A stretch of 42,727 nt of DNA from a virus. How positions within the stretch are numbered: the stretch's first letter is position 1; every line of letters begins with the position of its first letter. Location of the stretch: positions 1 to 42,727 of the IMG/VR virus record IMGVR_UViG_3300030520_001127; one strand, written 5' to 3'. Below the pieces are notes generated by a model. The model was not told the DNA's origin and made no database searches. It saw only the letters and a list, made by a program, of their open reading frames with translations. Shown here piece by piece: positions 13,601-15,916 of the stretch. The position numbers and the translations under genes were made by a program.

Positions 13601-14851
13601 ATGACCCTGCAACTCGAGCACTGGCCAGTCGATCGGCTCAAAGACTACGCCCGCAATCCACGCAAGAACGATCATGCCGTCGACCAGATGGCCGCGGTGA
13701 TCCGCGAGTTCGGATTTCGTATTCCGTGTGTGGTGAAGAGCACCGGTGAAGTGGTCGATGGCCATCTGCGACTGAAGGCGGCACGCCAGCTCGGTCTGGA
13801 ATCGGTGCCGGTGGTGCTGGCCGACGAACTGACCGACGCGCAGATCAAGGCATTTCGCCTGCTCGCCAATCGTTCGGCGACATGGGCCGAGTGGGACGAC
13901 GAGCTGCTGCAGCTTGAACTGGCTGACCTGCAGGCGCTGGATTTCGATCTGTCGCTGACAGGCTTCGATAGCGAGGAAATCGATGCTCTGCTCGCGGGTG
14001 ACGGCGAAGGGAGCGAAGGGCTCACCGACGAGGACGATACGCCCGAGCTGGCGGAACAGGCCATCTCGCAACGCGGTGATCTGTGGCTGCTCGGCGAGCA
14101 CCGCCTGCTCTGCGGCGACGCGACGTCCGCCGATGACGTTGCGCTGCTGCTGGGCGAGACGCGCCCTCATTTGATGGTGACCGACCCGCCCTACGGCGTC
14201 GAATACGACCCCGGCTGGCGGCGCGAGGCCGGCGTCAATCATTCCGAACGATTGGGTCAAGTGGTCAACGATGACCGCGCCGACTGGCGCGACGCGTGGG
14301 CGCTGTTTCCGGGCGATGTGGCGTACGTGTGGCATGCCGCGCTCTACGCCAGCACCGTCCAGGCGAGCCTGGAAGCCTGCAAGTTCAAGCTGCGTTCGCA
14401 GATCGTGTGGGTCAAGCGCCGGTTCGTCATCTCGCGTGGCCATTATCACTGGGGTCACGAAGCCTGCTGGTATGCCGTGCGCGAGGGCGCGACCGGACAC
14501 TGGAATGGCGCGCGTGATCAATCCACGGCCTGGGACCTGGCCAACGGCGGCGAAGAGGACACCGCGACCACGCACGGCACGCAGAAGCCGGTCGCCTGCA
14601 TGCAGCGCCCGATCCTCAACAACAGCGCCGCTGGCGATCCCATCTACGAACCGTTCAGCGGCAGCGGCACGACGCTGATTGCGTGTCAGACCTCGCAACG
14701 CCTGGCCCTCGCGATGGAGATCGAACCGCTGTACGTCGATCTGGCCGTACGCCGCTGGCAGAACTTCACGGGATTGGCCGCGACGCGCGCCAGCGATGGT
14801 TTGTCGTTCGACGAAGCAGCGACGCAAGCCGAGGCCGAAGCGGTCGCATGA
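13601..14851 (+). CDS. ParB-domain adenine DNA methyltransferase (beta class)
   Basis: 416 residues. The first 100 form a ParB/sulfiredoxin-like domain (LKDYARNPRKNDHAVDQMAAVI, GEVVDGHLRLKAA, then LADELTDAQIKAFRLLANRSA). The methyltransferase domain follows: catalytic DPPYG at about 194-198 and the SAM-binding FSGSGTT at about 351-357. Motif IV therefore precedes motif I, the beta-class order of N6-adenine or N4-cytosine enzymes; DPPY favours N6-adenine. Such ParB fusions are common in phages and protect phage DNA from restriction or mark it for other processes. It heads the two-methyltransferase block and overlaps the next gene by 4 bp. Confidence 0.9.
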   Translation: MTLQLEHWPVDRLKDYARNPRKNDHAVDQMAAVIREFGFRIPCVVKSTGEVVDGHLRLKAARQLGLESVPVVLADELTDAQIKAFRLLANRSATWAEWDDELLQLELADLQALDFDLSLTGFDSEEIDALLAGDGEGSEGLTDEDDTPELAEQAISQRGDLWLLGEHRLLCGDATSADDVALLLGETRPHLMVTDPPYGVEYDPGWRREAGVNHSERLGQVVNDDRADWRDAWALFPGDVAYVWHAALYASTVQASLEACKFKLRSQIVWVKRRFVISRGHYHWGHEACWYAVREGATGHWNGARDQSTAWDLANGGEEDTATTHGTQKPVACMQRPILNNSAAGDPIYEPFSGSGTTLIACQTSQRLALAMEIEPLYVDLAVRRWQNFTGLAATRASDGLSFDEAATQAEAEAVA

Positions 14852-15894
14852 TCAAGCCCGCGTACTACAACGAGAACGATCCGTACCTCTGCCAGTGGCT
14901 GCGCAACCTGATCGACGCGGGGCTGATCCCACCCGGCGAGATCGACAGCCGCAGCATCATCGACGTGCAGTCGAACGATCTGATTGGATTTTCTCAGTGC
15001 CATTTCTTTGCAGGGATCGGAGGATTTGCGTATGCCGCTCGACTCGCCGGCTGGCCCGACGATAAGCCGCTCTGGACTGGCGGCTTCCCGTGCCAGCCGT
15101 TCTCGGTCGCTGGACGCCAGCGCGCAGCGCAAGATGATCGTTACCTCTGGCCGCCACTGCATCGCCTTGTTGCATCGGGCCGACCGCCTTGGGTCTTGTG
15201 TGAAAATGTTACTGGCATCATCGGACTGGCACTCGACCGAGTGCTCGCTGATCTGGAGAGCGCGCGCTACGCCACACGGCCGCTTGTTGTTCCAGCTTGC
15301 GCCGTCGACGCGCCGCACCGCCGCGACCGCGTGTGGATCATCGCTCGCCACTTGGCTGACGCCGCTGACGCCGAACGGCGGGCGGACGCTGCCGGTGGGA
15401 ACGAGCCTGACCGGACGCACGCCGCAGGGATCGAAGGTGACGGTGGACCTGGCGCACCAAGCGAAAACGTTCTGGCCGACCGCGTTGGCGAACGACGCGG
15501 AGAAGCGTGGGCAGATCGCGCCGGAGCGGCGCAACGGGTTGCCGGGCGTCACGAGGGCCTGGAGCACGCCGCGCGCGAGCGACGGCGCGAAAGGCGGGCC
15601 GCACATGGCGTTCGGGGCGGGCGGCACGCCGCTACCCGCGCAAGCGGCGCAGCTCGCGTGGGCAACGCCGACGAGCCGCGACTACAAGGATGGGACGTCG
15701 CCGGGGACCGCGCCGGTGAACGCACACCTTGGGCGGCAAGTCGAACCGTCGCTGGACGCCGGGTCCCTGAATCCGGCATTTGTGTTCTGGCTGATGGGGT
15801 ACCCGCCCGCGTACCTAAGCTGCGCGCCGCCGGCAACGCGATCGTCCCGCAAGTCGCCGCGCGCATCCTCGGTGCCATGCTCGACGCCGGATGA
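14848..15894 (+). CDS. C5-cytosine DNA methyltransferase
   Basis: 348 residues from the ATG that overlaps the adenine methyltransferase stop. Motif I is FFAGIGGFAYA (about 53-63), the catalytic motif IV is GGFPCQPFSVAG with Cys82, and motif VI is ENV (119-121). DAPHRRDRVWIIA is motif VIII-like, and the C-terminal GNAIVPQVA (about 329-337) is motif X. The region between about 170 and 310 is a low-complexity, Ala/Arg/Gly-rich linker with repeated ADA and GERR phrases. I recognise that style from phage cytosine methyltransferases. Its likely role is protection of phage DNA. Almost all of its second half is also open in the +1 frame and codes for a different phage-like protein (next entry). Confidence 0.88.
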   Translation: MIKPAYYNENDPYLCQWLRNLIDAGLIPPGEIDSRSIIDVQSNDLIGFSQCHFFAGIGGFAYAARLAGWPDDKPLWTGGFPCQPFSVAGRQRAAQDDRYLWPPLHRLVASGRPPWVLCENVTGIIGLALDRVLADLESARYATRPLVVPACAVDAPHRRDRVWIIARHLADAADAERRADAAGGNEPDRTHAAGIEGDGGPGAPSENVLADRVGERRGEAWADRAGAAQRVAGRHEGLEHAARERRRERRAAHGVRGGRHAATRASGAARVGNADEPRLQGWDVAGDRAGERTPWAASRTVAGRRVPESGICVLADGVPARVPKLRAAGNAIVPQVAARILGAMLDAG

Positions 15895-15916
15895 TCCGGC
15901 GGCGGCGGGTGTTTGA
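15206..15916 (+). CDS. Overlapping +1-frame protein nested in the cytosine methyltransferase gene
   Basis: 236 residues if it starts at the ATG at 15206 (a GTG at 15200 is an alternative). It lies in the +1 frame over the 3' two thirds of the cytosine methyltransferase and ends 22 bp past it. It begins MLLASSDWHSTECSLIWRAR and continues with TPHGRLLFQLAPS, repeated W-TPL-P, WSTPRASDG and WATPTSRDYKDG phrases, a SLNPAFVFWLMGYPP motif and an Arg/Ser-rich end. These phrases are those of a known phage protein type that accompanies or replaces the C-terminus of phage cytosine methyltransferases. Both frames therefore look coding. It may be a separate protein or be reached by frameshifting from the methyltransferase. 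Confidence 0.6.
   Translation: MLLASSDWHSTECSLIWRARATPHGRLLFQLAPSTRRTAATACGSSLATWLTPLTPNGGRTLPVGTSLTGRTPQGSKVTVDLAHQAKTFWPTALANDAEKRGQIAPERRNGLPGVTRAWSTPRASDGAKGGPHMAFGAGGTPLPAQAAQLAWATPTSRDYKDGTSPGTAPVNAHLGRQVEPSLDAGSLNPAFVFWLMGYPPAYLSCAPPATRSSRKSPRASSVPCSTPDDPAAAGV

Follow-up and report, generated by a model that had tools for sequence, protein, structure and literature searches.

Does the +1 frame of a cytosine methyltransferase gene in a virus genome encode a second protein and, if so, what would that protein do? This question is raised by a 42.7 kb virus record of about 65% GC, the whole of which (42,727 nucleotides) we call the window. The original prediction, made from the window's letters, had singled out about 690 bp in which the methyltransferase frame and the +1 frame both read like real proteins, and had proposed either true dual coding or a frame switch. 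Throughout, we refer to the product of the methyltransferase frame as alpha and to that of the +1 frame as beta.

Layout of the locus

Both frames were found to be open over this stretch. The alpha frame runs from an ATG at 14848 to a stop codon at 15892-15894 and the +1 frame is open, stop to stop, from 14984 to 15916. All peptides that had been quoted were recovered in the translations, and the DNA run ttggctgacgccgctgacgcc, which had been pointed out as a segment with two readings, is translated as LADAADA in the alpha frame and as WLTPLTP in the beta frame. The extent of the hidden gene had to be revised: it had been placed from 15206 onwards, while we locate it at about 15032 to 15916, so that it is earlier and larger and reaches, with its 3' tail, 22 nt past the end of alpha. 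The features of the locus are as follows.

14848..15894, + strand: alpha, C5-cytosine DNA methyltransferase, proposed catalytic subunit, 348 aa (translation, PF00145, phrog_363, AF2, Foldseek)
15001..15027, + strand: alpha motif I (HFFAGIGGF)
15019..15023, + strand: GGAGG, putative Shine-Dalgarno of beta, with an 8-nt spacer to the ATG at 15032
15032..15916, + strand: beta, +1-frame gene nested in alpha, 294 aa (open frame, Shine-Dalgarno and ATG, stop depletion, codon-position signature, phrog_1008)
15079..15114, + strand: alpha motif IV with the catalytic PCQ (GGFPCQPFSVAG)
15199..15219, + strand: alpha motif VI (CENVTGI)
15218..15343, + strand: conserved core of beta (SSDWHSTECSLIWRA..RLLFQLAPSTRRT..GSS), part of it folded as strands with confidence in AF2
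15313..15345, + strand: alpha motif VIII (PHRRDRVWIIA)
15353..15472, + strand: beta cassette 1 (WLTPLTPNGG..AKTF)
15415..15840, + strand: alpha VIII-X linker, residues 190-331, largely disordered by prediction (block pLDDT about 31-50)
15473..15559, + strand: beta cassette 2 (WPTALANDAEKRG..)
15560..15658, + strand: beta cassette 3 (WSTPRASDGAKGG..)
15659..15763, + strand: beta cassette 4 (WATPTSRDYKDG..)
15764..15814, + strand: putative motif IX of beta (SLNPAFVFWLMGYPPAY)
15832..15867, + strand: alpha motif X (GNAIVPQVAARI)

Directly 5' of alpha, at 13601-14851, lies a second DNA methyltransferase-like gene with a DPPYG motif, whose stop codon overlaps the start ATG of alpha in the sequence ATGA. 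In the homologue L017, alpha is likewise preceded by a similar gene.

Evidence that the +1 frame is coding

Homologues were gathered by similarity to alpha alone where possible, and thus without selection for an open +1 frame; the collection covers both ENV-type and GEQV-type homologues. Stops were counted between 171 nt past the conserved YYN and 90 nt before the end of alpha, and were compared with a null model in which synonymous codons are shuffled within each gene, which preserves both the protein sequence of alpha and the codon usage. The original prediction had asked whether homologous loci carry stops in this frame. In 82 non-identical alphas, the window included, we counted 9 stops in the +1 frame where 295 ± 13 are expected, and the frame was fully open in 77 genes (2.4 expected). 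The +2 frame, serving as control, was at expectation with 853 stops versus 856. An enlarged set of 219 non-identical homologues contained 36 stops against a prediction of about 798, in sequences that are related, so that these counts are not independent events. Observed and expected stops were 3 and 61 for phages and plasmids, 10 and 126 for Lacticaseibacillus phages (49% GC), 10 and 390 for viral contigs, and 13 and 222 for bacterial genomes, which are probably largely prophages. The depletion thus recurs in distant groups, in counts that are uncorrected for relatedness, and it persists in homologues at 43-50% GC. Five ordinary C5-methyltransferases showed no depletion (56 stops versus 57 expected). 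Upstream of the beta start, stops were at or above expectation, and they were enriched in the last 60 nt of alpha. On this distribution of stops, the constraint has gene-like borders.

Is the +1 protein itself conserved? The original prediction had proposed to measure constraint in both frames, and we found that conservation of the +1 frame exceeds the level forced by alpha: its amino acid similarity was higher than in synonymously shuffled pairs in 83% of pairs over motifs I-VIII, in 80% over VIII-X and in 97% over IX/X. Among close pairs, motifs I-VIII showed the pattern of an ordinary gene, with differences at alpha codon position 3 (0.226) outnumbering those at position 2 (0.057). Between VIII and X, differences were most frequent at alpha codon position 1 (0.355, versus 0.240 at position 3), which is the third position of the beta codons, and beta was more conserved than alpha (identity 0.68 versus 0.56). 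From codon positions and identities taken together, alpha dominates the first half of the locus and beta the second, a split with which the AF2 confidence profile of alpha agrees. Dual coding, with beta as a conserved coding gene, is strongly supported by these sequence comparisons, and neither of the two outcomes that had been named at the outset as speaking against it was seen.

Start of beta

The putative GGAGG Shine-Dalgarno of beta sits within the motif I codons of alpha that encode AGIGG. Across the family, the ATGs of beta were found at a few fixed offsets from the YYN of alpha (+82, +100, +112 and +169), many of them with a Shine-Dalgarno sequence; the homologues L021, L026, L045 and L087 belong to the same +169 class as the window. 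The +100 start site makes use of the alpha codons for 'ERS'. Of the 49 genes with their first beta ATG at +100, 39 have a GGAG at this position, compared with 18 of the 86 other genes (P 4e-11); the Arg of 'ERS' was encoded by AGG in 36 of the 49, compared with 12% gene-wide. The conserved offsets of Shine-Dalgarno and ATG, together with this codon bias, argue for independent initiation over frameshifting, and ATG 15032 is the most likely start of beta on these grounds. A start at ATG 15206 had been considered and was replaced by 15032 in view of the Shine-Dalgarno and the family-wide start offsets. Between the two possibilities raised at the outset, dual coding is the one backed by stop depletion, +1 conservation, the codon-position signature and the internal starts.

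Alpha as the catalytic chain

Alpha contains motifs I, IV (PCQ), VI (ENV), VIII and X in this order. The Pfam family PF00145 matches the middle of the protein only (aa 76-167, E 2e-21), phrog_363 spans its full length (E 1e-65), and Foldseek aligns the predicted structure to M.HhaI. In the AF2 model, residues 1-170 are mostly above a pLDDT of 90, residues 190-331 are mostly below 50, and the motif X helix (residues 334-347) is again confident with pLDDT 81-92. Motif IX was absent from alpha throughout the homologue set (0 of 219). Alpha therefore departs from the layout of monomeric C5-methyltransferases, in which motif IX and the target recognition domain (TRD) are part of one chain. As judged from the model, alpha is predicted to be devoid of a small domain, i.e. 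of a DNA-recognition domain, and to carry between VIII and X a flexible linker, which appears to evolve as a passenger of the beta frame.

One metagenomic homologue (L017, 2468-3565), the only one with motif IX in the alpha frame, joins motifs I-VIII in frame to the last cassettes and IX. It was rejected as a true case of motif IX in alpha, as an apparent indel exchanges the frames and an assembly error or a pseudogene is likely.

Beta and motif IX

Beta is matched by phrog_1008 (E 2.6e-22). It consists of a Ser-rich N-terminus, a core with the consensus GSTxYxLTWKxKxTPxGRxxxQLxASxxRTS, a series of W-x-T-P cassettes and a C-terminal LNPxFxxWLMGYPxxW, which we found in 208 of 219 betas. This C-terminal element resembles motif IX of ordinary methyltransferases, such as LTPRECARLMGF in Dcm and LTVRMVARLQGFPDDW in the NgoMIV type. 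With a PSSM of the beta motif, the top-scoring window was motif IX in 6 of 10 ordinary methyltransferases, and hhalign set the beta motif on motif IX of an NgoMIV-type enzyme, in a short match of low probability (E 0.058). Against five aligned ordinary methyltransferases, hhalign gave for beta a weak unrelated match only. A motif-only HMM searched against the PDB missed motif IX and hit two irrelevant small proteins, the motif IX segment alone had no match in Pfam, and the full-length beta profile found no relative in PDB or Pfam. Profile searches of beta returned no HNH family. AF2 modelled beta alone poorly (pLDDT 59, pTM 0.23), and Foldseek found no match for this model.

Relatives in actinophages link the two frames more directly. 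In Arthrobacter phage Andrew, gp43 contains motifs I-VIII and then ends; gp44, in the overlapping +1 frame, is a single chain with LPTP cassettes, a motif IX (LSARFTEWMMGQPAGWVTD) and a motif X (CGNGVVTQQA). Both genes are separately annotated and their ends are staggered. Gordonia phage Jumbo has an arrangement similar to that of Andrew. In Mycobacterium phage Magnar, motifs I-VIII, IX (EFYEWLMGLPRGWVTD) and X share one frame, and a cassette-like stretch is found in the +1 frame. The frame of IX/X relative to I-VIII thus varies between these phages (L310, L312 and L317 for Magnar, Jumbo and Andrew). A 121-aa query of the cassette-IX-X type matches 554 actinophage records, which form a good set for tracing the exchange of frames.

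Our assignment of motif IX is based on the single-template hhalign match, the PSSM placement and these actinophage cases, of which the last appear to be the stronger support. Taken together, they support the location of motif IX in beta rather than alpha. The resemblance to motif IX and the actinophage cases point to beta being the small domain of the enzyme to which alpha belongs, and most likely beta is its target-recognition and motif IX subunit. Of the second, phage-like protein that had been proposed, the coding +1 product is upheld; it is best read as a recognition subunit and not as an independent protein.

Exchange of cassettes

The family contains between 1 and 9 tandem W-x-T-P cassettes of 30-45 aa each, four of them in the window. 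The cassettes (287 in a first set, 589 in the enlarged set) fall into families whose members turn up in different slots and precede up to 19 different neighbours. Cassette 1 of the window is replaced by one of another family in the relatives L012, L013 and L018 and is missing from the close relatives L014, L015 and L019; a further close relative (L016) has one additional cassette inserted. For cassette 3 of the window, we found an 86% identical cassette in Bosea (L241), at only 53% identity between the catalytic domains of alpha. Likewise, a Rhodobacter phage and a planctomycete genome (L093, L275) share cassettes with 90% identity and catalytic domains with 47%. Going by the sequences, cassettes are swapped between phages. 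The multispecific methyltransferases of Bacillus phages likewise carry a tandem series of exchangeable modules between VIII and IX, and by this analogy each cassette may be a target-recognition module. If so, phages could evade restriction by mixing and matching cassettes, and the recognised sites could be decoded by methylome sequencing.

A proposed two-subunit methyltransferase and its alternatives

We put the probability at about 85% that the locus encodes a two-subunit C5-cytosine methyltransferase of a phage or prophage, with alpha as the catalytic and beta as the recognition chain, encoded by two frames of the same DNA. Alpha would bind S-adenosylmethionine and contribute the catalytic PCQ, ENV, motif VIII and the closing motif X helix. 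Beta, with translation initiated separately from a Shine-Dalgarno and ATG of its own within alpha's motif I codons, would supply the missing small domain, i.e. the core, the exchangeable cassette array and motif IX. Motif IX would dock the recognition part onto alpha and the cassettes would select the targets, such that the alpha-beta complex may methylate phage DNA, probably at several sequences, as a protection against host restriction. The assembly of alpha with beta, the recognition role of the cassettes, the multispecificity and the anti-restriction use are all steps that we infer from sequence. We also lean, somewhat less firmly, towards the wider view that in a widespread enzyme family of phages and prophages the entire recognition apparatus (1-9 exchangeable cassettes plus motif IX) forms a separate +1 protein, that phages switch specificity by swapping cassettes and that alpha carries a disordered passenger linker.

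Could the open +1 frame instead be an untranslated by-product of high GC and of conserved methyltransferase residues? Long alternative frames often stay open in genes of high GC, and the window is GC-rich (about 65%). However, stops in the +1 frame become about 30 times more numerous when synonymous codons of the same genes are shuffled, the +2 control behaves as expected, the depletion is also seen at 43-50% GC, substitutions between VIII and X concentrate at alpha codon position 1, and ordinary C5-methyltransferases are free of the depletion; we consider a by-product barely credible. A programmed frameshift, yielding a fusion of alpha I-VIII with beta and no free beta, would have the appeal of joining I-VIII, cassettes and motif IX in one chain like an ordinary methyltransferase, and L017 is indeed naturally frame-fused through an indel. 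Such a fusion would however be devoid of motif X, which is retained in alpha. Moreover, the Shine-Dalgarno and ATG of beta are confined to a few conserved offsets, close to motif I or ahead of it, conservation extends to the N-terminal part of beta, which lies 5' of every sensible shift site, and the genes of phage Andrew are separately annotated with staggered ends, all of which makes a frameshift very improbable.

A somewhat better, but still poor, chance is given to beta being an unrelated overprinted phage protein, e.g. a regulator or an anti-defence factor. Overlapping genes often encode accessory novelties, and no homologue of beta as a whole was detected among solved structures or Pfam families. 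This explanation would leave unaccounted for that nearly all homologues lack motif IX in alpha and have it in beta, that in Andrew and Jumbo a single chain continues from cassettes of the same type into IX and X, and that alpha has no recognition domain.

Annotation and spread of the dual-coded pair

PHROG 363 matches 68 of 68 alphas and PHROG 1008 matches 70 of 70 betas. Both families bear the same name (DNA methyltransferase) and correspond to two frames of one locus. The original suggestion, that a single stretch of DNA may yield both C-terminal types known in phages through its two frames, fits these matches and the differing frame of IX/X in actinophages. Dual coding would explain why two PHROG families carry one name, and would mean that these loci contain twice as many genes. 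The same nested pair is annotated as two DNA methyltransferases in Paenibacillus phage Shelly (gp55 and gp56, with the note 'g55 internal gene'), in E. coli phage K1ind2 (ORF29 and ORF28) and in Xanthomonas phage PhiXhv-28; several other phage records list just one of the two, as for Klebsiella phage VLCpiM12a or Cronobacter phage JC01, where this is beta. The pair is thus already listed record by record. In the open-licence literature, no paper was found that treats the pair as a dual-coded family, or its selection or role, which given this scope is weak evidence.

The arrangement is conserved in well over 100 phages and prophages, whose hosts belong to the Pseudomonadota, Bacillota, Bacteroidota and Actinomycetota, and it is missed, half-annotated or misnamed in most of the records examined. 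To our knowledge, long same-strand overlapping genes under strong selection in both frames are rare; here, an overlap of roughly 0.7-1 kb is repeated across phages and prophages of four host phyla. The two-subunit reading would further identify the specificity determinant of many phage methyltransferases, whose targets are unreadable from the annotated chain.

Comparison with known systems

In work from 1995 on M.EcoHK31I, the beta chain is reportedly encoded within the alpha gene, in another frame. This two-polypeptide C5-methyltransferase (YGGCCR) divides its motifs between a large chain, with I-VIII and X, and a small chain, with IX; its predicted TRD was placed in the large subunit (PMC3404938). 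By description, the window is alike: motifs I-VIII and X are in alpha, motif IX is in beta and the alternate frame is nested. In contrast to the TRD predicted for the large chain of M.EcoHK31I, the VIII-X region of alpha is predicted to be disordered and the cassettes are in beta; moreover, the window family has 1-9 exchangeable cassettes and occurs in phages and prophages. Among the plasmids inspected, which were phage-like and included some phage-plasmids, no restriction enzyme adjoined the dual-coded pair. The family thus appears to work like M.EcoHK31I, and we do not file it as a member because the published placement of the predicted TRD differs, which suggests that the location of the recognition domain in M.EcoHK31I should be re-examined.

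M.AquI (CYCGRG) is a natural two-subunit C5-methyltransferase that is split between VIII and IX (PMC3404938). Jumbo and Andrew resemble it, with I-VIII in one chain and IX and X in the other; the window differs in that motif X is in alpha and that beta is nested almost wholly inside alpha. The multispecific C5-methyltransferases of Bacillus phages are, as far as is known, single-chain enzymes. Those of SPR, SPbeta, phi3T, rho11 and H2 carry tandem recognition domains between VIII and IX (PMC8936443). The window shares with them the phage origin, and it has tandem exchangeable cassettes, possible TRDs, at the corresponding place; its array is however in a second frame and forms a separate protein.

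An out-of-frame gene inside a phage methylase is also known from phage ShiLan, where a hidden HNH endonuclease is a homing insert (PMC11855218). Beta of the window is similarly out of frame, but it is neither an HNH protein nor an insertion and shares the catalytic codons. HNH-like frames were seen in three homologues (L081:3525-3929, L001:2242-2760 and L078:3537-3836), inserted between IX and X in the beta frame; the alpha frame is open through the insert, which resembles the ShiLan elements (PMC11855218). In a Paenibacillus polymyxa plasmid (L287:1285-2775), the motif IX phrase 'QLNPxWVECLMGFPLxWT' occurs twice in the +1 frame, with stops in this frame after the first copy, as if the cassette/IX segment had been duplicated in tandem.
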